A DNA stretch of 64,000 nt from Amycolatopsis granulosa (GTDB lineage Bacteria; Actinomycetota; Actinomycetes; Mycobacteriales; Pseudonocardiaceae): assembly GCF_011758745.1 (NCBI RefSeq), contig NZ_JAANOV010000001.1, positions 2,666,001 through 2,730,000 on the forward strand. The letters are read 5' to 3'. Made by a program: the position numbers and the translations under genes. The notes beneath the pieces were generated by a model. It did no database searches. It saw nothing but the letters and a program-made list of their open reading frames with translations, and was not told where the DNA came from. Position 1 is the first letter of the stretch, and the number at the start of each line of letters is the position of its first letter. Positions 36,237 to 50,533 of the stretch are shown piece after piece.

Positions 36237-38861
36237 TCACGTGAGCAGGGTCAGGACGGTCTCCATCTTCCGTCCCACCGACCGGGCGGTGCGCGCCTGC
36301 AGCCAGGCTTCCAGCCGGTCCTCGGCCAGCGGGCGGGAGATGAGGTAGCCCTGGGCCACGTCACACCCCATCGCCTCCAGCTGGTCCCGCGCGACGTCCT
36401 CCTCGACGCCTTCCGCGACCACCGCGAGGCCCAGCGAGTGGCCCAGCTCGACGATCGAGCGCACGACCGCCAGGTCGCCCAGATCGGTACCCATGCCGAG
36501 GACGAAACTCTTGTCGATCTTGACCTCGTCCACCGGCAGCTGCCGCAGGTAGGCCAGCGACGAATAGCCCGTGCCGAAGTCGTCGACCGCGAGCACGATG
36601 CCGAGGCCGTGCAGCTCACGCAGGATCGGCAGCGCCTTCTGCGGATCGGCCATGACACCGGACTCGGTCAGCTCGAACGTGAGCAGCTCCGGTGGCACGT
36701 CGAACCTGCGCAGCGCCCGCACGACCTTGGCCGGGAAGTCCTCGTCGGCCAGGTTGCGCACGGACAGGTTGACCGCGACGGAGATCCGCAGCCCCTCGTC
36801 CATCCACTTGCGCACCCGGATCAGCGACTGCTCCAGCACGAACCCGGTCAGCACGCCGACCAGCCCGGCCGCCTCGACGGCGGGCACGAACTCGTCCGGG
36901 TCGAGCCGGCCGAACTCGGGGTGCTGCCAGCGCACCAGCGCCTCCACGCCGAGGACCTGCTTGCTCGGCAGCGACACCTTCGGCTGGTAGTGGACGCTGA
37001 CCTGACCCTCCTCGATGGCCTGCCGGAACTGGGTGACCATCTGGAACCGGCGCAGGAAGATCTGCCCCATGCTGGGCACGTACCCGCGGACCTCCTCGCC
37101 GCCGCGGGTGGCGCGGACGGCGACGTCGGCCCGCTGGAGCAGGGCGTCCACGTCGCCGGGGTCGACGGTGTCGTCGTCCGCGATGGCCGCGTAGCCGACC
37201 ATCGCGTTCGCCTCGACGGTGAGCCGGTCGACGGGGTAGGGCACGGACAGCTGGGCGCGCAGCCTGCCGGCGGCGTCGTGCACGGCCTGTCCGCGCACGC
37301 CGGTGAGCAGCGCGGCGAAGGACGCGCCCTCCAGCCTGGCCAGCGGCACGTCCGGGCCGAGGGCGTCCCGCAGGCGGCGTCCGGCAGCCATCACCATGCG
37401 GTCGGCCCAGGCGTAGCCGAGGGCGTCGCTGACCGTCGAGAACACATCCAGGTCGATGCGCAGCACCGCGGCGTCGGCGGAGCCGGCGTGCTCGGCCAGC
37501 GGTTCACGCGCGACCTGCCGGAAACCGGGCCGGTTGAGCAGGCCGGTGAGCGGGTCGTGGTAGGCGTCGTGGCGCAGGGTGGCGAGCAGGCGGCGGTTGT
37601 CCAGCGCGGTCGCCAGGTGGCTGGCCATGGTGCCGAGCAGCTGGATGTCGTACTTGCCGAAGCCCCGCCAGCGGGACAGGCGGTCGTGCGCCTCGACGAC
37701 GCCGAGCAGCTGGTTCGCGGTGCGCAGGGGCACCACCAGCGCTTCCTGCGCACCGCGGGTGATCAGGCCGGCGGCGATGTCGCCGTTCGCCTCGGTGACG
37801 CGGAAGTGCCGCACGTGCGACCCGGGCAACCGCAGCATCGGGTCGTCGGCGGGTGGGTCGGCCGAGGGCATCGGCTCCCCCGCGACGACGGTCCGCATGT
37901 CCGCGGTCGGTTCCAGCCGCAACCGCAGCACCACGCGACCGGCGGAGAGCTGGTCCTTGATGCGTTCGGCGATGGTCTGCCACTCGCTGACGTTGACGCC
38001 GGCCGCCAGGTCGTCGGCGCCGCTGGCCGGGCGGGCGGCGGCCTGCTGGCCGGACCGCGCGACCATCAGGCTCACGTCGGAGAGCGCTTCCATGTCCCGC
38101 TGCTCGCGCAGCAGGTCGGAGTAGGCCCAGTAGAGCGCGGACAGCCCGGCGAAGACGGCGAGCACCAGCGGCCAGGCGTTGGCGGTGCCCTCGATCACCA
38201 GGTAGCCGCTCAGGCCGACCGAGGCGTTGACGAACCCGACGACCAGGATGCGGCCGGTGAGCCGCAGCGCCGTGCCGATCCGCATGCGGCGGCGCAGCAC
38301 CCGGACGGCGGCCAGGGCCAGCAAGGTGCTGGTCAGCGGCGCCGTCAGGGTGCCGGCGAGCGCGGCCGGCCAGCTCATCTCGGTGGTGCCCGCGATCAGC
38401 TGGACCAGGCCGGCCACGGCGAATGCGCTGGTGATCTCCAACAGGAACGCGCCGGCGTTGTAGAGGACGCGCCCGGAGACGCGACGGACCACGAGCGTGC
38501 TGATCCCGGCCACCAGGTGCGCGGCGAGCACGACCTCGAAAGGTGCCACGAAGAAACCGATGACCAGCGGGATCTCGGTGAAGGAAATGGTCCAGGAGAT
38601 GCCCGACCGGACGTCGACGTTGATGCCGAGCTGCTCGGCGAGCAGGAAGGACAGGGCCAGCACCGGACCGATCCACCACAGCTCCGCCGAGCCGTGGAAC
38701 GGCAGCCACAGCGCGACGGCCGCGGCGGTGAGCACACCGACGGAGAAGACGGTCAGCGTGTAAAGCCGGAAGCGGCGCTCGTCCGCCCGCGCCTCGGCAC
38801 CACCAGAATTGGCGGCTGCCGCCGGGATGGGGCCGTCCGGCTTGCCATCGGAGTCCGGCAT
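36237..38861 (-). CDS. membrane GAF-GGDEF-EAL protein, probable c-di-GMP phosphodiesterase
   Basis: 874 residues. Seven or eight membrane helices (~35-255), a GAF-like domain (~290-440), a GGDEF domain (~450-610) and an EAL domain (~615-860). The GGDEF loop reads RLEGASFAALL instead of GG[DE]EF, so the cyclase is probably inactive. The EAL part is complete: VEALVRWQHP, NLSVRNL, ELTESGVM, VDDFGTGYSSLAYLRQL, KIDKSFV, AEGVEE and QGYLISRPL, so c-di-GMP hydrolysis is expected. ATG 38861 follows GGAAGGAGG. It ends 76 bases before tRNA-Thr on the same strand. Confidence 0.92.
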   Translation of the reverse strand: MPDSDGKPDGPIPAAAANSGGAEARADERRFRLYTLTVFSVGVLTAAAVALWLPFHGSAELWWIGPVLALSFLLAEQLGINVDVRSGISWTISFTEIPLVIGFFVAPFEVVLAAHLVAGISTLVVRRVSGRVLYNAGAFLLEITSAFAVAGLVQLIAGTTEMSWPAALAGTLTAPLTSTLLALAAVRVLRRRMRIGTALRLTGRILVVGFVNASVGLSGYLVIEGTANAWPLVLAVFAGLSALYWAYSDLLREQRDMEALSDVSLMVARSGQQAAARPASGADDLAAGVNVSEWQTIAERIKDQLSAGRVVLRLRLEPTADMRTVVAGEPMPSADPPADDPMLRLPGSHVRHFRVTEANGDIAAGLITRGAQEALVVPLRTANQLLGVVEAHDRLSRWRGFGKYDIQLLGTMASHLATALDNRRLLATLRHDAYHDPLTGLLNRPGFRQVAREPLAEHAGSADAAVLRIDLDVFSTVSDALGYAWADRMVMAAGRRLRDALGPDVPLARLEGASFAALLTGVRGQAVHDAAGRLRAQLSVPYPVDRLTVEANAMVGYAAIADDDTVDPGDVDALLQRADVAVRATRGGEEVRGYVPSMGQIFLRRFQMVTQFRQAIEEGQVSVHYQPKVSLPSKQVLGVEALVRWQHPEFGRLDPDEFVPAVEAAGLVGVLTGFVLEQSLIRVRKWMDEGLRISVAVNLSVRNLADEDFPAKVVRALRRFDVPPELLTFELTESGVMADPQKALPILRELHGLGIVLAVDDFGTGYSSLAYLRQLPVDEVKIDKSFVLGMGTDLGDLAVVRSIVELGHSLGLAVVAEGVEEDVARDQLEAMGCDVAQGYLISRPLAEDRLEAWLQARTARSVGRKMETVLTLLT

Positions 38862-39272
38862 GCAACCTCCTTCCACCCACTCGCCCCAGTGCGCCCGCCG
38901 GTACCCATCGCACACGGAACCGTGATCCCGGTGCGAATGAGGGGATCACTGTACCCCGGAGGGCTTACTTGAGCCTCTTTCCGGCCACGATGAGATCAGC
39001 TCATGGTTAACAGCGTGCCAACTGCGGTGACCAGCGGAGACTTCCGGGTGACGGCAGCATTTCGCCGGTCGCTCCGGGTAGCCACCGTTCCGTACTAGTC
39101 GCCCACGCGATGACAGTGCGTAATTGGCCCAGCGGCATCGGGAAAAGATTCGCGGCAATGCGACGAGGCTCTCACTCCTGGGATCCGCAACGGCCACCGC
39201 TGCCCCGGTTTATTCCCGATTGCCGTCCGCTGCAAGCGAACTACCTGCGGAAACAAACCAGCCGTCGAGAAA
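38862..39272. other. EAL gene/lon intergenic region
   Basis: About 410 bases without a credible gene. It carries the inverted repeat at 38922-38949 and the divergent promoters. The stretch 38980-39240 is less GC-rich than its surroundings and shows no recognisable element. Confidence 0.4.
38922..38949. promoter_or_regulatory. inverted repeat upstream of the EAL gene, possible operator
   Basis: Perfect 8-base arms GTGATCCC and GGGATCAC separated by 12 bases, 61 bases upstream of the EAL start. The arm spacing fits a dimeric regulator. No matching regulator is adjacent. Confidence 0.4.
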
Positions 39273-39293
39273 GTTGAGCTATGCAGACTCAAC
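39273..39293 (+). promoter_or_regulatory. HAIR-type HspR operator of lon
   Basis: GTTGAGC-N7-ACTCAAC, differing from the HAIR consensus CTTGAGT-N7-ACTCAAG only at the outer pair and one inner base. It lies 18 bases upstream of the lon ATG. HspR control of lon through HAIR is known in Streptomyces, so the position supports the call. Confidence 0.75.
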
Positions 39294-39310
39294 CAGGTAG
39301 GGAGCAAACG

Positions 39311-41722
39311 ATGACCGAAACCAGGCTCCTCCCCGTACTGCCCCTCGACGGCGACGTGGTGCTGCCCGGCATGATCGTCCCGCTCGAGCTCGACGGCGAC
39401 TCCGGCGGCGAGACGCGCGCGGCGGTTGACTCCGCACAGGCGAAGGCACCGAGCACGTCGTCCTTCCCGGGCATCCGGTCGCTCCCGGCCGCGCAGGCCG
39501 AGGTCCTGATCGTCCCGCGGGTCCACGGGGAGTACGCCGAGCTGGGCGCGGTCGCGACCATCGAGCGCGTCGGCCGCATTCCCGGCGGCAAGGCCGCCGT
39601 CCTGCTGCGCGCCACGCGGCGCGCACGGGTCGGCCAGACCGGCGACGGCCCCGGCGCCGCGCGATGGGTGTACGCCGAGCCGGTGACCGAGCTCGCCGGC
39701 GAGCGCGCCCAGGCGCTGGCGGCCGAGTACAAGACCGTCGTGATCTCGATCCTCCAGCAACGCGGCGGCTGGCAGATGATCGACGCCGTGCAGCAGCTCG
39801 AGGACCCGTCGGCGATCGCGGACCTCGCCGGGAACTCGCCGTTCCTGAGCACCGGGCAGAAGCTGGAGCTGCTGAGCACGCTGGACGTCGCGGCGCGGCT
39901 GGAGAAATCACTGGAGTGGAGCCGGGAGTACCTGGCCGAGCTCGAGGTCACCGACACCATCCGCAAGGACGTCGCCGAAGGCATGGAGAAGCAGCAGAAG
40001 GAGTTCCTGCTGCGCCGCCAGCTGGAGGCCATCCGCAAGGAACTGGGCGAGCTGGACGGCACCGCCGACTCCGACGACTACCGCGCCCGGGTGGAGAAGG
40101 CCGACCTGCCGGAGCACGTCCGCACGGCCGCTCTGGCCGAGGTGGACAAGCTGGAGCGCACCTCCGACGCCTCGCCGGAGGGTGGCTGGATCCGCACCTG
40201 GCTGGACACGGTGCTGGAACTGCCGTGGCGGACCCGGACCGCCGACGTGCACGACATCACGGCGGCGCGGGCCGTGCTCGACGCCGACCACGCGGGCCTG
40301 GACGACGTGAAGGAGCGCATCATCGAGTACCTGGCCGTGCGGGCCCGCCGCGCGGGCGCGGGCAAGGGCCAGGTCGGCGGGCGCCACTCCGGGGCGGTGC
40401 TGGCGCTGGTCGGTCCGCCGGGCGTGGGCAAGACCTCGCTCGGCGAATCGGTCGCGAAGGCGATGGGCCGCGAGTTCGTCCGGGTCGCGCTGGGCGGGAT
40501 CCGGGACGAGGCGGAGATCCGCGGCCACCGGCGCACGTACGTCGGCGCCCTGCCCGGCCGCATCGTCCGGGCGATCAAGGAGGCCGGCTCGATGAACCCG
40601 GTGGTCCTGCTCGACGAGGTGGACAAGGTGGGCGCCGACTACCGCGGCGACCCGACCGCGGCGCTGCTGGAGGTGCTCGACCCCGAGCAGAACCACACGT
40701 TCCGCGACCACTACCTCGAGGTCGAGCTGGACCTGTCCGACGTGGTGTTCCTCGCCACCGCCAACGCGCTGGAGACCATCCCCGGCCCGCTGCTGGACCG
40801 GATGGAACTGGTCACGCTGGACGGCTACACCGAGCACGAGAAGATCGTCATCGGCCGCGACCACCTGCTGCCGCGGGAGCTGGAGCGGGCCGGGCTGGGC
40901 CCCGACGACGTGCGGTTCACCGACGCGGCGCTGGGCCGGATCGCCGCCGAGTACACCCGCGAGGCGGGCGTGCGCAACGCGAACCGCACCATCGCGAAGG
41001 TGCTGCGCAAGATCGCGACCCGGGTCGCGCTGGACGAGGCGACGCTGCCGGTGACCGTCGACGCGGCCGACCTGGAGGGCTACCTCGGCCGACCGCGGCA
41101 CCTGCCGGAGTCGGCGCTGCCCGCGTCGACCCAGCGGACCGCGATCCCCGGCGTCGCCACCGGTCTGGCCGTGACCGGCGCGGGCGGTGACGTCCTCTAC
41201 ATCGAGGCGTCGCTGGCCGACCCCGAATCGGGCAGCTCCGGGCTCACACTTACCGGTCAGCTGGGTGAGGTGATGAAGGAGTCGGTGCAAATCGCGCTGT
41301 CCTACCTGCGCTCGCACGGCGCCGAACTGGAACTGCCGGTCGGCGACCTGAAGGACCGTGGCGTGCACGTCCACGTCCCCGCGGGCGCGGTCCCCAAGGA
41401 CGGCCCGTCCGCCGGCATCACGATGACCACCGCGCTGGCGTCGCTACTGTCCGGCCGGGTGGTGCGGGCCGACGTGGCGATGACCGGTGAGGTGTCGCTG
41501 ACCGGCCGCGTGCTGCCGATCGGCGGGGTCAAGCAGAAGCTGCTCGCCGCCCACCGGGCCGGGATGAAGACGGTGATCATCCCGCAGCGCAACGAGCCGG
41601 ACCTGGACGACGTCCCCGCGGACGTGCTGGCCCAGCTCGACGTGCACCCGGTGTCGAACGTCCGTGAGGTGCTCGACCTGGCGCTGGCGCCGGCCACCTC
41701 CCCGGTGGCACAGGCCGCCTGA
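39311..41722 (+). CDS. lon: ATP-dependent Lon protease
   Basis: AAA+ serine protease degrading damaged and regulatory proteins, 803 residues. LON substrate domain first (LLPVLPLDGDVVLPGMIVPL), Walker A GPPGVGKTS at about 368-376, Walker B VVLLDEVDK, and the protease dyad Ser700 (KDGPSAGITM) with Lys743 (GGVKQKLLAAHRAG), 43 residues apart as in E. coli. ATG 39311 has GGGAG six bases upstream; an in-frame ATG at 39281 lies in the HAIR element and is rejected. Heat-shock control via HspR is expected. Ends at a terminator. Confidence 0.97.
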   Translation: MTETRLLPVLPLDGDVVLPGMIVPLELDGDSGGETRAAVDSAQAKAPSTSSFPGIRSLPAAQAEVLIVPRVHGEYAELGAVATIERVGRIPGGKAAVLLRATRRARVGQTGDGPGAARWVYAEPVTELAGERAQALAAEYKTVVISILQQRGGWQMIDAVQQLEDPSAIADLAGNSPFLSTGQKLELLSTLDVAARLEKSLEWSREYLAELEVTDTIRKDVAEGMEKQQKEFLLRRQLEAIRKELGELDGTADSDDYRARVEKADLPEHVRTAALAEVDKLERTSDASPEGGWIRTWLDTVLELPWRTRTADVHDITAARAVLDADHAGLDDVKERIIEYLAVRARRAGAGKGQVGGRHSGAVLALVGPPGVGKTSLGESVAKAMGREFVRVALGGIRDEAEIRGHRRTYVGALPGRIVRAIKEAGSMNPVVLLDEVDKVGADYRGDPTAALLEVLDPEQNHTFRDHYLEVELDLSDVVFLATANALETIPGPLLDRMELVTLDGYTEHEKIVIGRDHLLPRELERAGLGPDDVRFTDAALGRIAAEYTREAGVRNANRTIAKVLRKIATRVALDEATLPVTVDAADLEGYLGRPRHLPESALPASTQRTAIPGVATGLAVTGAGGDVLYIEASLADPESGSSGLTLTGQLGEVMKESVQIALSYLRSHGAELELPVGDLKDRGVHVHVPAGAVPKDGPSAGITMTTALASLLSGRVVRADVAMTGEVSLTGRVLPIGGVKQKLLAAHRAGMKTVIIPQRNEPDLDDVPADVLAQLDVHPVSNVREVLDLALAPATSPVAQAA

Positions 41723-42021: not shown

Positions 42022-42660
42022 TCATGGTCCGGGTCGCGCGCCGGCCTCGGCCTCGCCGCGCTGGTGGCACCGTCGCCATTCCACTGTCGCCACGCCACCG
42101 AGCACCACGTCCACCACCCGTTCCGCCAGATCGTCGGTGACCGGGAGGTGTCCGAACAGGACACGGTAGTAGGTGGTGGACGCGAGCATGTCCAGCACCA
42201 GATCGAGGTCGAGCTCCGGGTCGAGGTCACCGCGGTCGATGCCGCGCCGCAGCGCCGCCGCGGTGGACGACCGTCGCTTGTGGAAGTACTCGCGCAGGAA
42301 CAGCTCGGCCAGTTCCGGGTCGTCGGCGAGGTCGGCCACCAGCGCGGGCAGCACGCGGCGCCCGATCCTGGTGGTGAACGCCTCCGTCAGCGAGTGGATG
42401 CCCGCGATCAGATCGCAGTGCGTGCAGCCGGTGTCGGGCGTCGGCGCGGCGCCGACCGTGGTCACCAGGGCGTCGACGACCAGGTGCTGACGGCCGCGCC
42501 AGCGCCGACGCAGCGCGGGCTTGCTGGTGCCGGCCCGTGCAGCCACCGCTTCCAGGGTGAGCCCCGCGTAGCCCACCTCGTTCAGCACGTCGACGGCGGC
42601 ATCGCGCACGGCGACGTCGATGCGGTGGTCGCGCGGCCTGCCGGCGCGGCTGTTCGTCAC
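42022..42660 (-). CDS. TetR-family repressor of the adjacent MFS transporter
   Basis: 212 residues with the N-terminal DNA-binding domain DAAVDVLNEVGYAGLTLEAV and ARAGTSKPALRRRW, then a helical ligand domain. The C-terminal 25 residues are Arg/Gly/Glu rich. GTG 42660 lies about one base after the predicted transcript start (-10 TAGACT at 42668-42673), suggesting a leaderless mRNA. Divergent from the MFS gene with a shared palindromic operator. Confidence 0.9.
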   Translation of the reverse strand: MTNSRAGRPRDHRIDVAVRDAAVDVLNEVGYAGLTLEAVAARAGTSKPALRRRWRGRQHLVVDALVTTVGAAPTPDTGCTHCDLIAGIHSLTEAFTTRIGRRVLPALVADLADDPELAELFLREYFHKRRSSTAAALRRGIDRGDLDPELDLDLVLDMLASTTYYRVLFGHLPVTDDLAERVVDVVLGGVATVEWRRCHQRGEAEAGARPGP

Positions 42661-42667
42661 GGCGCCC

Positions 42668-42706
42668 AGTCTACCACTTGCGTTCCGTTCCGGAACGGAA
42701 CATAAT
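42668..42706. promoter_or_regulatory. divergent promoters with perfect 20-bp TetR operator
   Basis: The palindrome 42682-42701 consists of GTTCCGTTCC and its exact complement GGAACGGAAC. For the MFS gene, TTGCGT (42678-42683) and CATAAT (42701-42706) are 17 bases apart, with the operator filling the spacer. For tetR, TAGACT (minus, 42668-42673) has its -35 region inside the operator. One bound repressor would block both. Confidence 0.85.
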
Positions 42707-42713
42707 CGCTTCC

Positions 42714-44054
42714 GTGTCCATCACCTCGACATCAGAAGGCGTGTTCTCGCCCCGCTACCGCGCCCGCACGGCCGGCATCGTGCTCACCGTCGGACTCGTC
42801 GCGCTCGAATCCCTGGGCGTGGCGACCATCCTGCCGGACATCGCGCGCGGGCTCGGTGGCCTCGGCTCCTACGGCTGGGGCCTGGCGGCGTTGATGCTGG
42901 CGAACATCGTCGGCACCGTGCTGGCCGGGCACGCCGCCGACCGCGGCGGTCCGGGCCGGCCGCTGGCGCTGGGGCTGGTGTCGTTCGCCGCCGGCAGCGT
43001 GGTGGCCGGGCTCGCCCCGACGTGGCCACTGTTCCTGGTCGGCCGGTTCGTGCAGGGGCTGGGCGTGGGCGCGGTGATGGCGATGGCCTACACGCTGATC
43101 GGCCTGGTCTACCCGGAACGGCTGCGCGCCCGGATGTTCGCGCTGCTGTCCTCGGCGTGGACCATTCCTTCCCTGGTCGGCCCGGTGATCGCCGCGACGG
43201 TCGCGAGCACGATCGGCTGGCGGTGGGTGTTCCTGTTCATGATCCCGCTGGCCGCGGTGGCCGCCTGGGGCACGCTGCCCGGCCTCGAGCGGCGGGAGCC
43301 CGGCCCCGCGGTCACGTCCCGGTGGCGCCCGCTGATCGGCAGCATCGCGCTCACCGCCGGCACCGGCCTGCTCCTGGCCGCGCTGGAGCTGCGCACGATC
43401 GCCCTGCTGGCCCCGCTCGCCGTGGCCGGGCTCGCGGTTGCCGTGGTCGCGCTCCGGCAGATCACCCCGGCCGGGACCCTCGCCGTCCGACGGGGCGTAC
43501 CCGCCGGGGTGGTCGTCCGGTTCCTGCTGTGCGCGGTGTACTTCGGCACCGAGGCGTTCCTCCCACTGGGGCTGACCCAGCTGCGGCACCTCGACGCGTT
43601 CGAGGCGGGACTGGGCCTGTCGGCGGGTGCGCTCACGTGGGTGGCCGGTTCCGCGCTGCAGGCCAAGTGGGATCGCCACCGGCGGGTCACCGTGGCGCTG
43701 GGTTTCGCGGTTCTGGTCGCCGGAGTCGCGGTGCTGGCGTTCGGTGTGCTCGTGGGGCCGGGACTGCTCGCCGTGCTCGGCTGGGCGATCGGCGGCGTGG
43801 GCATGGGTGCCGCGTTCAACGCCGCCACCACCGAGACGCTCGGCCGCACGCCGGAGGAGCAGCAGGGGTCGGTCAGCGCGTCGCTCCAGCTGGCCCAGAC
43901 ACTCGCGACCGCCGTCGCGAGTGGACTCGGCGGCGCGCTGATCGCCCACCAGGGTCCGGTACCGGGCGCGTTCCTGGTGGTCTTCCTCGGCACCGCGGTC
44001 CTCGGTCTCGCCGGGGTCGTCGCGGCCCGGCGGCTCAGCGGAGCTGAGGTGTGA
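42714..44054 (+). CDS. MFS drug-efflux-type transporter
   Basis: 446 residues with about 14 hydrophobic segments, as in the DHA2-like drug/H+ antiporters. Motif A-like GHAADRGGPGRPLALG follows the second helix and VQGLGVGAVMAMAYTLI matches a transmembrane-4/5 region. GTG 42714 is favoured because the -10 box at 42701-42706 would start transcription at or one base before it; an earlier ATG at 42678 lies inside the -35 box. Controlled by the divergent TetR protein. Substrate unknown. Confidence 0.9.
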   Translation: MSITSTSEGVFSPRYRARTAGIVLTVGLVALESLGVATILPDIARGLGGLGSYGWGLAALMLANIVGTVLAGHAADRGGPGRPLALGLVSFAAGSVVAGLAPTWPLFLVGRFVQGLGVGAVMAMAYTLIGLVYPERLRARMFALLSSAWTIPSLVGPVIAATVASTIGWRWVFLFMIPLAAVAAWGTLPGLERREPGPAVTSRWRPLIGSIALTAGTGLLLAALELRTIALLAPLAVAGLAVAVVALRQITPAGTLAVRRGVPAGVVVRFLLCAVYFGTEAFLPLGLTQLRHLDAFEAGLGLSAGALTWVAGSALQAKWDRHRRVTVALGFAVLVAGVAVLAFGVLVGPGLLAVLGWAIGGVGMGAAFNAATTETLGRTPEEQQGSVSASLQLAQTLATAVASGLGGALIAHQGPVPGAFLVVFLGTAVLGLAGVVAARRLSGAEV

Positions 44055-44100
44055 TGCAAATCTCCCTCGTTCGCCGCTTGCCGCGATGATCCCTCCTGGG

Positions 44101-44127
44101 TTAGCACTCTTAGCAGGAGAGTGCTAA
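44101..44127 (+). promoter_or_regulatory. perfect CIRCE (HrcA) operator
   Basis: TTAGCACTC-N9-GAGTGCTAA, an exact match to the CIRCE consensus, 34 bases upstream of a glycosyltransferase start. Either TTGCCG (44078-44083) with TTAGCA (44101-44106) at 17 bases, or TTAGCA with TAACTG (44124-44129) at 17, could be the promoter; in both cases CIRCE overlaps it. No chaperone gene is nearby. Confidence 0.93.
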
Positions 44128-44161
44128 CTGAAGAGAGGCCTTGACGGTCCGAGGAGGCAGC

Positions 44162-45379
44162 TTGAGCAGCGCGCATCGTCCTGCGTGGAAAGCCCGATCT
44201 GTTTCGCACCCCGCCGTGCACCGGGACAGCCATGATCGCCCGCTCCGGGTGGCGATGATCGTCCCGCCCTACTTCGACGTTCCGCCGAAGGCGTACGGCG
44301 GAGTCGAGGCGGTGGTGGCCGATCTCGCCGACGCCCTCGTCGACCGCGGGCACCGGGTCACCCTCATCGGCGCCGGCCACACCGGCACGAAGGCCGGGTT
44401 CGTCCCGGTGTGGGAGCGCACCGTCCCCGAACTGCTCGGCCAGCCGTACCCGGAAGTCATGCACGCGATCGCCGCGCGCCGGGCCGTGCAACGTCTCGCC
44501 GCGAGCGAGGGGGTCGACGTGGTGCACGACCACTCGCTGGCCGGACCGCTCAACGCACCCGCCTACGGGGTGCCGACGGTGGTCACCGTGCACGGGCCGG
44601 TGGGCGAGGACATGGCGCGCTACTACGGGGAACTGGGCGACGACGTGCACCTGGTGGCGATCAGCGACCGGCAGCGGGAGCTGGCGCCGGGTCTGAACTG
44701 GATCGGCACCGTCCACAACGCACTGCGCCTGGCGGACTGGCCCTACGAGTCCGAAAAGGACGACTACGCGCTGTTCCTCGGCCGGTTCCACCCGGACAAG
44801 GCGCCGCACCTCGCGCTCGAGGCCGCGCACCGCGCGGGGCTGCGGCTGGTGCTGGCCGGCAAGTGCGCCGAGCCGATCGAAAAGGAGTACTTCGAGCGGG
44901 AGGTCCGGCCACGCCTGACGGACAACGACCACGTGTTCGGCGTCGCCGACGCGAGCGCGAAGCGGGAACTGCTCGCCAAGGCCCGCTGCCTGCTCTTCCC
45001 GATCCAGTGGGAGGAGCCGTTCGGCATGGTCATGATCGAGGCGATGGCGTGCGGCACCCCGGTTGTCGCGCTGCGGTCCGGGGCGGTGCCGGAGGTCGTG
45101 GTGGACGGCGTCACCGGCCTGGTGCGCGACGATCCGGCCGACCTGGTGCAGGCCCTGCACGACGTCCGGCACCTCGACCCGGCCAAGTGCCGCACGCACG
45201 TCGCGGAGCACTTCGACGTCGGCGGGCTCGGCGCCGGCTACGAGACGGCGTACCGGCGGGCCGTCGAGGTCAGCAGTCTCCGCCGCGACTACGCCGCGCT
45301 GGACTCGGCGCTCGACCGCGCCTACGACCAGATGGACAACGGCGGCCCGGCGTTGCAGCCGTCCGGAGGCCGGTCGTGA
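44162..45379 (+). CDS. GT4-family glycosyltransferase under CIRCE control
   Basis: About 405 residues, GT-B fold. The N-terminal domain has PPKAYGGVEAVVADLADAL and VDVVHDHS; the nucleotide-sugar domain has FLGRFHPDKAPHLALEAA and the E-x7-E motif EEPFGMVMIEAMACGTPVV. Start TTG 44162 follows GAGGAGG; TTG 44141 is another in-frame candidate, and the conserved part only begins near VAMIVPPYFD. The stop overlaps the next start (GTGA). It is the first gene behind a perfect CIRCE operator. A role in glycogen, trehalose or a stress polysaccharide is inferred from the partner gene only. Confidence 0.88.
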   Translation: MSSAHRPAWKARSVSHPAVHRDSHDRPLRVAMIVPPYFDVPPKAYGGVEAVVADLADALVDRGHRVTLIGAGHTGTKAGFVPVWERTVPELLGQPYPEVMHAIAARRAVQRLAASEGVDVVHDHSLAGPLNAPAYGVPTVVTVHGPVGEDMARYYGELGDDVHLVAISDRQRELAPGLNWIGTVHNALRLADWPYESEKDDYALFLGRFHPDKAPHLALEAAHRAGLRLVLAGKCAEPIEKEYFEREVRPRLTDNDHVFGVADASAKRELLAKARCLLFPIQWEEPFGMVMIEAMACGTPVVALRSGAVPEVVVDGVTGLVRDDPADLVQALHDVRHLDPAKCRTHVAEHFDVGGLGAGYETAYRRAVEVSSLRRDYAALDSALDRAYDQMDNGGPALQPSGGRS

Positions 45380-47496
45380 CCCCGGAAGCGTTCAACGCGG
45401 GCGAGCCGGTGCCGGTGACCAGCGCGGGCGGCACGGTCACGCTCGTCGAGGGCAGCACGTTCTGCCTGTCCGGGCCGGGCGGCGACATCCAGCCGGGCAC
45501 CTCGCACGGCCTGTTCTTCCGGGACGCGCGGCTGATCTCGCGGTGGGAGCTGCGGCTGGACGGGCAGCCGCCGCACCCGCTGTCGGTCATCTCGCCGGAA
45601 GCGTTCGCGGCGCAGTTCGTGCTGCGCCGCAATCCCAAACCGGGGCAGGCGGACAGCACGCTGCTGCTGGTGCGCGAACGCCTCGTCGGCGACGGTCTCC
45701 GGGAAACGATCACCCTGCGGAACCTGGGCCGGGAGAACACGGTCGCGAACCTGACGCTGCACGTCGACGCGGACTTCTCGGACCTGTTCGCGGTGAAGGA
45801 GGGCCGGCCCGCGCACGGCGGGGCGGACGCCACGGTCGCCGGCTCGGAACTGCTGCTGCGGGACCGGTCCGACGGCTCCCGCGGCCTGTCGGTCAGTGCC
45901 ACCGCCGATCCGCTGGCCGCGCCCGGAGTGCTGAACTGGCGGGTCGTCGTGCCCGCGCGCGGCGAGTGGTCGACCGAGATCGTGGTCCAGCCCACCGTCG
46001 GGAACCGGCGGGTGCGGCCGCAGTTCGATCGCGGCGAGGAGGTCGCGGCCAGCGGGCCGGCCCGCAAGATCCGGGCGTGGCGCGACGTGAGCACGATGAT
46101 CGCGGCCGACGATCCGGTGCTCACCCAGGTGCTGCAGCGGACCGAGAGCGACCTCGGCGCACTGCAGATCCACGACACGAGCCAGGACGGACGGCCGTTC
46201 GTCGCCGCCGGCGCACCGTGGTTCATGACCCTGTTCGGGCGGGACAGCCTGCTCACCGCGTGGATGGCGCTGCCGCTGGACGTCGGCCTCGCGCTCGGCA
46301 CCCTGGAGACCCTCGCCGAGTTGCAGGGCAAACGGGTCGACCCGCTGACCGAGGAGGAGCCCGGCCGGATCCTGCACGAGCTGCGCCTCGGCCCGGACAG
46401 CGACCAGGTGCTCGGCGGCAGCCACTACTACGGCACGGTGGACGCCTCGCCGCTGTTCGTCATGCTGCTGGCCGAATGCTGGCGCTGGGGGGCGGACGAG
46501 ACCGCGGTGCGGGCTCTGCTCCCGGCCGCGGACGCGGCGCTGGACTGGCTGGAGCGCTACGGCGACCGCGACCGCGACGGGTTCGTCGAGTACCGGCGCG
46601 CAACCGACCGCGGCCTGCTCAACCAGGGGTGGAAGGACAGCTTCGACGGCATCAACGACGCGGCCGGGCGGCTGGCCACCACGCCGGTCGCGCTGTGCGA
46701 GGTCCAGGGGTATGCCTACGCGGCCTGGCTGGCGCGCGCCGAACTGGCCGACGCGTTCAACGACCCGGCCACCGCCACCCGCTGCCGGGAACGGGCCGAT
46801 CAGTTGCGCGAGCGGTTCGCGGAGACGTTCTGGCTGCCCGAGCAGGGCTGGTACGCCGTGGCACTGGACGGGCGCAAGCAGCCGCTGGACGCGTTGACCA
46901 GCAACACCACTCACTGCCTGTGGTCGGGCATCGCCACCGACGAGCACGCCGCCGTGCTGATCGAGCGGCTCAGCCGGCCGGAGATGGACAGCGGGTTCGG
47001 GTTGCGCACGCTGTCCTCGGCGATGGGCGCCTACAACCCGATGAGCTACCACAACGGCTCGGTGTGGCCGCACGACACGGCGATCGCCGTGGCCGGCTTG
47101 CTGCGCTACGCGCACCTGCCGGGCGCGGTGGAGCTGGCGCAGCGCCTCGCGACCGGACTGCTGGACGCGGCGGCCGCGTTCGGCGGGCGGCTGCCCGAGC
47201 TGTTCTGCGGTTTCTCCCGGTCGGAGTTCAGCCCCCCGATCCCCTATCCGACGTCGTGTTCGCCGCAGGCGTGGGCGAGCGCGGCACCGCTGCTGCTCGT
47301 GCGGTCGTTCCTCGGGCTCGAACCGCACGTCCCGCAGCGGCGGCTGGCGGTTCGCCCGCACCTGCCCGAGCGGTGGGGCCGGCTGCGCCTGTCGGACCTG
47401 CGGCTGGGCGAGCTGACCGTGCACGTCGAGGCGGACCACGACGTGGCGAAGGTGCGGGGGCTGCCGGAAGGGTGGGACCTGCGGATCACCGGGTGA
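45376..47496 (+). CDS. glycogen-debranching-type amylo-alpha-1,6-glucosidase
   Basis: 706 residues. The N-terminal ~210 residues form the beta-rich glycogen-debranching N-domain (GGTVTLVEGSTFCLSGPGGD, HGLFFRDARLISRWEL), followed by an (alpha/alpha)6-barrel glycosidase with GAPWFMTLFGRDSLLTAWMA, GSHYYGTVDASPLF, NQGWKDSFDG and the end motif YNPMSYHNGSVWPHDTA. Asp/Glu in GRDS and KDSFDG are candidate catalytic or substrate residues. GTG 45376 is coupled to the glycosyltransferase. Probably trims or remodels an alpha-glucan made or extended by the partner; both would be derepressed by heat. Confidence 0.88.
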   Translation: MTPEAFNAGEPVPVTSAGGTVTLVEGSTFCLSGPGGDIQPGTSHGLFFRDARLISRWELRLDGQPPHPLSVISPEAFAAQFVLRRNPKPGQADSTLLLVRERLVGDGLRETITLRNLGRENTVANLTLHVDADFSDLFAVKEGRPAHGGADATVAGSELLLRDRSDGSRGLSVSATADPLAAPGVLNWRVVVPARGEWSTEIVVQPTVGNRRVRPQFDRGEEVAASGPARKIRAWRDVSTMIAADDPVLTQVLQRTESDLGALQIHDTSQDGRPFVAAGAPWFMTLFGRDSLLTAWMALPLDVGLALGTLETLAELQGKRVDPLTEEEPGRILHELRLGPDSDQVLGGSHYYGTVDASPLFVMLLAECWRWGADETAVRALLPAADAALDWLERYGDRDRDGFVEYRRATDRGLLNQGWKDSFDGINDAAGRLATTPVALCEVQGYAYAAWLARAELADAFNDPATATRCRERADQLRERFAETFWLPEQGWYAVALDGRKQPLDALTSNTTHCLWSGIATDEHAAVLIERLSRPEMDSGFGLRTLSSAMGAYNPMSYHNGSVWPHDTAIAVAGLLRYAHLPGAVELAQRLATGLLDAAAAFGGRLPELFCGFSRSEFSPPIPYPTSCSPQAWASAAPLLLVRSFLGLEPHVPQRRLAVRPHLPERWGRLRLSDLRLGELTVHVEADHDVAKVRGLPEGWDLRITG

Positions 47497-48401: not shown

Positions 48402-49396
48402 TAGTCCTTCTTCGCCCGGCTGGGTGCGACCCGGGGCGGCTCGTTCGGCTGTTTCGGGTACACCGGTGGCCAGGGTGCGTCCATCAGGCCCGCCGCCATG
48501 TCCCGTTCGGACATCTCCAGCAGCGGCTCGATGGACTGCGGCCGCGAGTACATCCCGGCCCACGGGTCACCGCGCCGGGACACCAGCTCCGGTACCGTCG
48601 TGAGGGTCAGCTCACCGGGCTCCACAGTGGACAACTCGTCCCAGCCGATGGGTGCCGACACCTGCCCACCCGGCCGTGGTCGCACGCACCAGGCACCGAA
48701 CACGGTCTTGTGCGGTGCGTTCTGGTTGAAGTCCACGAAGACCCGCGCCCCGCGTTCCTCCTTCCACCACTGCGCGGTGATCAGTTCCGGGTGCCGCCGC
48801 TCCAGCTCCCGCGCGAGCGCGACGGCGGCGGCACGCACCTGGTACGAGTCCCACCGGGACTCCAGCGCCACGTACACGTGCAGCCCGCGCGAGCCGGTGG
48901 TCTTCAGGAACGATGCGATGCCCAGCGAGTCGAGCCGGTCCTTGGCCAGCACCGCCGCTTCCCGGACCTGCGCGAAGCTCACCCCCGGCGACGGGTCCAG
49001 GTCGATCCGCAGCTCGTCGGTGTACGAGGGCTCCGACGCGCGGTAGGGCCACACGTGGAACCCGATGCACCCGAGGTTCACCGCCCACAGGATGTGCGCC
49101 AGGTCCGCCGCCACCAGCGCGTCTGAGGTCGTGCCGTTCGGCGTCGACACGACCGTCGTCCGCGCCCAGGACGGAGTGGACTTCGGCACCCGCTTCTGGA
49201 ACCACGACTTGCCACTCGCACCGTCCGGGTACCGCTCCAGCAGCAGCGGCCGGTCCCGCAACGTGTTCATCAGCGGGCCCTCGACCGCCTGGTAGTACCG
49301 CACCAGGTCGAGTTTGGTCTCGCCGCGTTCGGCGAAGTACACCTTGTCCGGCGACGAGATGCTGACCTCGGTGCCCTCGATGGGAACGGCGCTCAC
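48401..49396 (-). CDS. LigD-type polymerase/primase domain protein (Prim-PolC-like)
   Basis: A 331-residue archaeo-eukaryotic primase-type polymerase. Conserved pieces are KVYFAERGETKLDLVRYY, the metal site in ELRIDLDPSPG, SRGLHVYVAL (His for nucleotide binding) and the third acidic region FVDFNQNAPHKT. In mycobacteria the homologue beside ligC fills short gaps with ribonucleotides during base-excision repair. GTG 49396 overlaps the ligC stop (GTGA). No Ku gene is adjacent. Confidence 0.9.
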   Translation of the reverse strand: MSAVPIEGTEVSISSPDKVYFAERGETKLDLVRYYQAVEGPLMNTLRDRPLLLERYPDGASGKSWFQKRVPKSTPSWARTTVVSTPNGTTSDALVAADLAHILWAVNLGCIGFHVWPYRASEPSYTDELRIDLDPSPGVSFAQVREAAVLAKDRLDSLGIASFLKTTGSRGLHVYVALESRWDSYQVRAAAVALARELERRHPELITAQWWKEERGARVFVDFNQNAPHKTVFGAWCVRPRPGGQVSAPIGWDELSTVEPGELTLTTVPELVSRRGDPWAGMYSRPQSIEPLLEMSERDMAAGLMDAPWPPVYPKQPNEPPRVAPSRAKKD

Positions 49397-50466
49397 GCTT
49401 TCACCTCGCTGAACAGGGCGGTCAACTCCGCCGGCGGTACCTCTTCCAGCTGGTCGTAGCGGCACGACCCGGGTGTCCGGTCGGGACGGAACCGCACCAG
49501 CCGGGTGGCGTGCCGGAACCGGGCGGCCTGCAGGTGGTCGTAGCGGACCTCGGCGACCAGCTCGATCCGCACCGGCTCCCAGGACAGGTCCTTGCCGGCG
49601 TTCCACCGGCTCTGCGCGCCCGGCATCCGGCGCCCGTCGGGAACGAACGACGCCCATTCGCGCCACGGGTGCTGCTCCATCGCGCCCTCGCGCAGCGGTG
49701 CCAGCTCGCCGGCCAGCTCACGGCGCCGGGCGGCGGTGAAGCTGCTGGCGACGCCCACGTGGTGCAGCCGCCCGCTGTCGTCGTAGAGACCGAGCAGCAG
49801 CGACCCGACACCGTTGCCGTCCTTGTGCCACCGGAACCCGGCGACCACGCAGTCGGCGGTGCGCTCGTGCTTGACCTTCCACATCACGCGCTTGTCCTGC
49901 TCATACGGCAGGTCGCCGGGTTTGGCCATCACCCCGTCGAACCCGGCGCCCTCGAACCGGGTGAACCAGTCCTGCGCCACGTCCGGGTCCAGCGTCATCG
50001 GGGTCAGGTGCACCCGGGCGAGGGAATCGTCGAGGACTCCGTCGAGGACGTGCCGGCGGCGGTGGAACGGCTCGCCGGTGAGGTCGCCGTGGTCGAGGGC
50101 GAGGATGTCGAACGCGACGAAGCTGGCCGGTGTCTCCCCCGCGAGCTTGCGCACCCGGGACGCGGCGGGGTGCAGGCGCAGCTGGAGGCTGTCGAAGTCG
50201 AGGCCGTCCCGGGTGACGATGACGATCTCGCCGTCGACCACGCAGCGCGGCGGCAACGCGGCCTTGAGCAGGTCAACCAGTTCGGGGAAGTACCTGGTCA
50301 GCGGCCGGTCGTTGCGCGAACCCAGCTCGACCTCGTCCCCGTCGCGGAACACCACGCAGCGGAACCCGTCCCACTTCGGCTCGTAGTGCAGGCCCGGTTC
50401 GCGGGGCATCTCGTGCACGGCCTTCGCCAGCATCGGCTTGACCGGTGGCATCACGGGCAGGTCCAC
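49393..50466 (-). CDS. ligC: ATP-dependent DNA ligase LigC
   Basis: 357 residues. The adenylated lysine is Lys31 in YEPKWDGFR, followed by RNDRPLTRYFPEL, VVDGEIVIV, GVMAKPGDLPYEQ and MWKVKHERTADCVV (motifs III-V), then an OB domain. GTG 50466 gives VDLPVMPPVKPMLAK, aligning with mycobacterial LigC; the ATG at 50505 would add 13 residues and overlaps the possible ECF -35 box at its outer edge. Seals nicks after gap filling by the coupled Prim-PolC. Confidence 0.92.
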   Translation of the reverse strand: MDLPVMPPVKPMLAKAVHEMPREPGLHYEPKWDGFRCVVFRDGDEVELGSRNDRPLTRYFPELVDLLKAALPPRCVVDGEIVIVTRDGLDFDSLQLRLHPAASRVRKLAGETPASFVAFDILALDHGDLTGEPFHRRRHVLDGVLDDSLARVHLTPMTLDPDVAQDWFTRFEGAGFDGVMAKPGDLPYEQDKRVMWKVKHERTADCVVAGFRWHKDGNGVGSLLLGLYDDSGRLHHVGVASSFTAARRRELAGELAPLREGAMEQHPWREWASFVPDGRRMPGAQSRWNAGKDLSWEPVRIELVAEVRYDHLQAARFRHATRLVRFRPDRTPGSCRYDQLEEVPPAELTALFSEVKA

Positions 50467-50504
50467 ACGCAAGACTCTAGGCCGGAAAAATCCCGCGCGC
50501 GCCA

Positions 50505-50533
50505 TGTCGAAAACGGCGGATCCGCTCCGGACC
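50505..50533 (+). promoter_or_regulatory. possible ECF42-dependent promoter of the DGPF gene
   Basis: TGTCGA (50505-50510), the -35 motif described for ECF42 sigma factors, lies 61 bases upstream of the DGPF start; CGGACC (50528-50533) sits 17 bases further. The -35 is convincing, the -10 only roughly fits the CGA/TC type. Confidence 0.5.

Follow-up and report, generated by a model that had tools for sequence, protein, structure and literature searches.

An exact CIRCE operator precedes a glycosyltransferase-glycosidase operon in Amycolatopsis granulosa: a candidate metabolic member of the HrcA regulon

The window considered here, a stretch of 64,000 nucleotides of Amycolatopsis granulosa (contig NZ_JAANOV010000001.1, positions 2,666,001 to 2,730,000), contains an exact copy of the controlling inverted repeat of chaperone expression (CIRCE), the operator of the heat-shock repressor HrcA, in front of a two-gene operon encoding a glycosyltransferase of family 4 (GT4) and a debranching-type glycosidase. 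The locus consists of the following features, given in positions of the window.

44077..44082, + strand: TTGCCG, a possible -35 hexamer 17 nt before the CIRCE
44101..44127, read on the + strand: CIRCE operator, exact (0 mismatches), TTAGCACTC-TTAGCAGGA-GAGTGCTAA
44162..45379, + strand: GT4 glycosyltransferase gene, 405 amino acids, TTG start after AGGAGG
45376..47496, + strand: debranching-type glycosidase gene (GDE_N_bis, MGH1-like_GH, GDE_C), 706 amino acids, start overlapping the GT4 stop

A preliminary description of this DNA had already named an exact CIRCE 34 bases upstream of a GT4 gene that is coupled to a glycogen-debranching-type glucosidase gene, and each of these elements was recovered. 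The operator matches the consensus TTAGCACTC-N9-GAGTGCTAA as given in the available part of PMC3842655. It is the only match to the CIRCE pattern in the window at up to 3 mismatches, and none of 100 dinucleotide shuffles contained a match. From the end of the operator to the TTG start there are 34 nt. The TGA stop of the GT4 gene (45377-45379) overlaps the GTG start of the glycosidase gene (45376), and this stop/start overlap, of the form [AG]TGA, is kept in all 18 Pseudonocardiaceae loci read (10 from the genus, including that of A. granulosa, and 8 others). The first protein matches the Pfam profiles Glycos_transf_1 and Glyco_transf_4, both above cut-off, and the domains listed above for the second are likewise Pfam matches. 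Upstream, a gene encoding a transporter of the major facilitator superfamily (MFS; 42678-44054) lies on the same strand as the operon and ends 46 nt before the CIRCE; therefore, the operator faces the GT4 operon. No terminator was detected in a search downstream of the operon. A fixed third operon gene was rejected, as the downstream open reading frames vary among the 14 loci examined, according to a coarse caller that missed known genes in some of them.

The genome, a single contig of 5,623,989 bases, contains five CIRCE sites at up to 3 mismatches, compared with none for the reversed pattern used as a control. Only the site at the GT4 gene is free of mismatches; the other four have 1, 1, 2, and 2. 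These are found before groES (Cpn10), which has a groEL downstream, before the gene for a small Zn_ribbon_8 protein, and, as two sites in tandem, before a second groEL (Cpn60). The Zn_ribbon_8 protein is, from its general look, a putative Ruc (Rv0991c). A single copy of hrcA is present (PF01628, E 3.4e-60; 342 codons), followed by a frame resembling dnaJ. According to the available text of PMC7448276, HrcA of Mycobacterium tuberculosis directly represses three genes of the Hsp60/Hsp10 family as well as ruc. Because the remaining four sites of A. granulosa precede groES, groEL (two sites), and the Ruc-like zinc-ribbon gene, its CIRCE set looks like this published regulon with the GT4-glycosidase operon added.

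The preliminary description had made its idea depend on the presence of CIRCE upstream of orthologues in close relatives, and the site was found there throughout the genus and in other genera and families, the copies in Nocardia being without it. Among 19 genomes of the genus, including that of A. granulosa, 11 have a GT4 match at a threshold of E 1e-60. Ten of these are orthologues (at least 84%), and in each of them the start is preceded, at 24 to 34 nt, by a perfect CIRCE. Genome G003, the eleventh, encodes two GT4 paralogues (54-57%), both without CIRCE. Among 200 genomes of the family, a glycosidase match at E 1e-100 was found in 72. Upstream DNA was read for 40 of the 68 glycosidase places outside the genus, the other 28 being the 23 most distant ones and G106, G184, G205, G179, and G188. 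At 8 of the 40 places, a GT4 gene (at least 70%) lies directly upstream of the glycosidase gene, and 7 of these pairs have a CIRCE, with 0 mismatches in five, 1 in one, and 2 in one. In the eighth pair (L056), the left arm is intact and the right arm is damaged. At the remaining 32 places, four of which have a close glycosidase (69-79%) but no GT4, the 4 kb of DNA read contains no CIRCE at up to 5 mismatches. Of 9 Pseudonocardiaceae relatives scanned, 8 have just one perfect CIRCE in the genome, and it stands before this GT4. This pattern is not general: the perfect sites of Glycomyces arizonensis lie at Ruc-like and Hsp20 genes, and those of two Nocardia at Hsp20 genes. That the CIRCE arose by chance, or is an artefact of assembly or contamination, was excluded by the shuffles, the genome scan with its reversed control, and the same site at 10 of 10 genus orthologues; the probability left to this explanation is practically nil.

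Two further surveys reached beyond the family; the surveys overlap in certain loci that represent one genome entered twice. The first, of named organisms, covered the closest relatives (the best 80 of 497), with CIRCE called at up to 2 mismatches. The operator was found in 22 of the 80 loci (0, 1, and 2 mismatches in 11, 9, and 2 loci, respectively), namely in 13 of 14 from Pseudonocardiaceae, 7 of 8 from Mycobacteriaceae, and 2 of 5 from Micromonosporaceae; two loci from unclassified metagenome-assembled genomes had none. One of the Micromonosporaceae sites (L146) precedes a GT4 gene with no glycosidase detected in the locus. The mycobacterial locus without CIRCE is from Mycobacterium shimoidei, which has two GT4-glycosidase copies and the operator, a perfect one, at only one of them (L174, 1501-3027; the other being L135). 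The second survey sampled 397 genomes of the order at a GT4 threshold of E 1e-130, which gave 31 places in 28 genomes; 30 were read, and one was without a locus. Here, CIRCE was present at 6 of 6 places in the own genus, 3 of 4 in other members of the family, 4 of 4 in genus g53, none of 11 in genus g65, and none of 2 in two others.

Conservation is concentrated in the arms of the operator. Mean column scores over 32 CIRCE sites are 1.87 bits in the arms and 0.59 in the spacer, and over the 22 sites outside Amycolatopsis, the values are 1.84 and 0.49, with 0.39 for the upstream and 0.26 for the downstream flank; as these sites were preselected at up to 2 mismatches, the arm score is partly built in. 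Unaffected by this preselection are the 10 genus orthologues, in which the arms are perfect and the spacers differ. In a quickly built tree of 106 GT4 rows (no bootstrap, identical proteins entered once), the CIRCE label requires 8 changes compared with a shuffle mean of 27.1, and none of 500 shuffles was as low; one locus (L057) is mislabelled as CIRCE-free in this tree although a 1-mismatch site is present, the BLAST hit having begun inside the site. A TTG is located 17 +/- 1 nt upstream of the operator in all 18 Pseudonocardiaceae loci read. From this spacing, the -10 element would fall on the left arm, and the promoter may thus lie under the operator. In 9 of 10 aligned mycobacterial sites, a CATAAT continues into the first T of the CIRCE.

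Judged from comparison alone, control of the operon by HrcA is highly probable. The preliminary description had suggested that HrcA links heat shock to alpha-glucan or trehalose-related metabolism. The regulatory half of this suggestion is supported because CIRCE is present at the genus orthologues and in further genera and families; the metabolic half calls for refinement, with a small glucoside as the likelier product, the nearest characterised GT4 being a glucosylsucrose synthase. The further statement that no HrcA regulon of this kind has been described is not contradicted by the open papers searched: in the available portions of the PubMed Central literature, no report of CIRCE/HrcA control of a glycosyltransferase-glycosidase operon was recognisable. 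Non-chaperone members of HrcA regulons as such have precedent (PMC3842655, PMC545781). In the accessible part of PMC545781, a survey of delta-proteobacteria, groESL is the sole constant member of the regulon; dnaK operons and, in one case, rpoH are added to it, rpoH being a non-chaperone member in Geobacter sulfurreducens. For L. plantarum, the predicted members given in the corresponding part of PMC3842655 include an integrase and a gene whose function is not known.

The closest solved relative of the GT4 is the cyanobacterial glucosylsucrose synthase TeGSS (E 5.1e-60). The catalytic residues Tyr18 and Arg179 of TeGSS are present in columns (Y45, R208) that are invariant in 14 sequences, and three of ten mapped residues at the rim of the sucrose cavity are identical (Y18, K184, W254). 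As the closest characterised GT4 is a glucosylsucrose synthase, a small glucoside solute would be a more likely product of the pathway than glycogen or trehalose. The model of the glycosidase has its best match in an amylo-alpha-1,6-glucosidase, followed by GH63 enzymes that include solute hydrolases, and the match to the 7vma-type amylo-alpha-1,6-glucosidase is near full length in both sequence and fold. The enzymes might, under HrcA control, serve alpha-glucan turnover of the glycogen or trehalose type, in which the GT4 would extend and the glycosidase debranch a storage glucan during heat stress, and the closest glycosidase structure, an alpha-1,6-debranching enzyme, would suit glycogen. 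However, the NCBIfam match for such a role reaches 73.7 bits, far under the cut-off of 302.4, and among solved structures the GT4 is far closer to TeGSS than to maltose-1-phosphate synthase (5e-11) or GlgA (2.8e-4); turnover of a glucan is rather unlikely. An HrcA-controlled remodelling of a cell-envelope or exported glycan, instead of a cytoplasmic solute, could be read from the presence of the envelope glycosyltransferases PimA and WbaZ-1 among the GT4 hits, but with 4.2e-10 and 1.1e-9 these score far below TeGSS, and such a function is improbable.

The preferred explanation is an HrcA-regulon operon for the synthesis and recycling of a small protective glucoside, with its chemistry left general. 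A probability of about 0.6 is given to it, because the regulatory half carries most of the reading and the chemistry is kept general; if HrcA control is granted, a small soluble glucoside serving as protectant has slightly better than even odds. That HrcA depends on GroE is established knowledge. Kept active by GroE (PMC3842655, in the part available), HrcA would bind the CIRCE over the putative promoter and hold the operon off. Heat or another protein-unfolding stress would occupy GroE and release HrcA, and the operon would come on jointly with groESL, groEL, and the zinc-ribbon (Ruc-like) gene. The GT4 would then move glucose from UDP-glucose, probably in alpha-1,2 linkage, to a small acceptor, leading to a protective solute that the co-translated glycosidase may trim or recycle.

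Besides the debranching-type fold of the glycosidase, several observations weigh against this explanation. A sigma-70 consensus scan of the operator stretch detected no promoter. Seven of the eleven TeGSS rim residues differ in the GT4 (W10, Y70, E74, Y97, R117, T119, N122), and the eleventh, Glu265, is unmapped, that number aligning to Ser. Because of these seven differences, sucrose is doubtful as the acceptor, and its role as a certain acceptor was given up. On sucrose synthesis in the host, the sucrose-phosphatase profile S6PP decides nothing: it exceeds its cut-off in 13 of 14 genomes, though over short stretches, and is unspecific, with matches also in 11 of 14 control genomes; the best match of A. 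granulosa (E 1.8e-5) covers positions 147-222 of 247 of the profile. With regard to regulation, CIRCE is missing in all 49 Nocardia loci of the named survey, one of which has just 9 nt of upstream sequence, and in all 11 Nocardia copies of the order survey (genus g65). Most Glycomyces-type copies are also free of it, with no site in 2 Glycomyces loci (Glycomycetaceae) of the named survey and a site in 1 of 3 loci of genus g81 in the order survey. The GT4-glycosidase genes can thus exist without HrcA control. The same copies would fit an operator that binds HrcA but matters little, being spare or kept for a shared promoter, with no heat-dependent role of the enzymes. Against this stand the arms, which are kept while the spacer drifts, the top rank of the site among the operators of its genome in 8 of 9 relatives, and its occurrence at the operon in several families, and a dispensable operator is very improbable.

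Two g81 loci (L224, L225; 1298-1324) have an altered CIRCE with 6 mismatches, the spacing and spacer of which are like those of the perfect site of L220; they likely represent operator decay. In Nocardia, CIRCE-like sites at up to 3 mismatches occur elsewhere in all 5 genomes scanned (reversed control, 0 to 3 per genome), and therefore the system itself is not lost. The HspR-associated inverted repeat (HAIR) was rejected as a substitute, the best upstream matches having 4 to 7 mismatches where CIRCE is absent and 3 to 7 where it is present. GAGTGC half-sites are found in some Nocardia upstream regions, which is too little to call a site. In Nocardia acidivorans (L177, 1501-1588), two CIRCE-like sites with 2 and 3 mismatches lie about 60 nt apart, and a glyoxalase-family gene on one side points away from them. 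CIRCE was also found beside Hsp20 genes in mycobacteria, Nocardia, and a Glycomyces, all 7 proteins being above the Pfam cut-off (L175, L178, L179, L180, L182, L184, L185); the M. tuberculosis HrcA targets quoted in the available part of PMC7448276 do not include Hsp20.

HrcA regulons have so far been described mainly as chaperone regulons. The comparison suggests that chaperones and a chemical protectant stand under one heat-shock repressor in Amycolatopsis, several related soil bacteria, and mycobacteria. If the conserved metabolic target is true, GroE availability would also govern a small-molecule protectant, providing a direct route from the protein-folding state to solute synthesis. A wider proposal, which is tentative and stands a little short of even odds, is that HrcA has had a chemical-chaperone arm since early in this actinobacterial lineage: an operon for an undescribed alpha-glucoside protectant would share the signal of GroE occupancy with the Ruc-like protein, Hsp20, and the chaperonins, before being cut loose in Nocardia at a later time. 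The operon offers experimental access to heat tolerance in these bacteria and to the acceptor used by a GT4 family.

The surroundings of the operon contain further genes. Just upstream of the operator (42022-44054), a TetR-type repressor gene and the MFS gene, which is of the efflux type, are divergent. At 48404-50505, the - strand encodes an ATP-dependent DNA ligase and, as a separate gene, a LigD-type primase-polymerase, a split end-joining set; a gene for a large GAF-GGDEF-EAL protein (36240-38915) lies before lon, also on the - strand. An imperfect HAIR-like repeat (39273-39293; 3 mismatches) spans the start of lon (39281-41722), which is weak at a chance expectation of 0.82 in the window.

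With the HrcA/CIRCE class I regulon of M. tuberculosis, the system of A. granulosa shares the exact operator consensus, hrcA, and CIRCE at groES, groEL, and a Ruc-like gene, and it differs by the added sugar-enzyme operon, which has the best operator of the genome. The GT4 resembles the cyanobacterial GT4 enzymes TeGSS and alr1000 (PMC9909042) in that its sequence is about 40% identical to the consensus of the profile and has the conserved residues Y18, R179, K184, and W254, whereas 7 of 10 mapped rim residues, the partner gene, and the control differ. The glycosidase has 30-33% identity to the amylo-alpha-1,6-glucosidase of Thermococcus gammatolerans (PDB 7vma; PMC9142091, available in part) but is paired with a GT4 and placed under a CIRCE. 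Its identity to the GH63 enzymes YgjK of E. coli, mannosylglycerate hydrolase of Thermus, and glucosylglycerate hydrolase of Mycolicibacterium hassiacum is 14-19%, and it is set apart from these by its GDE_N_bis domain.
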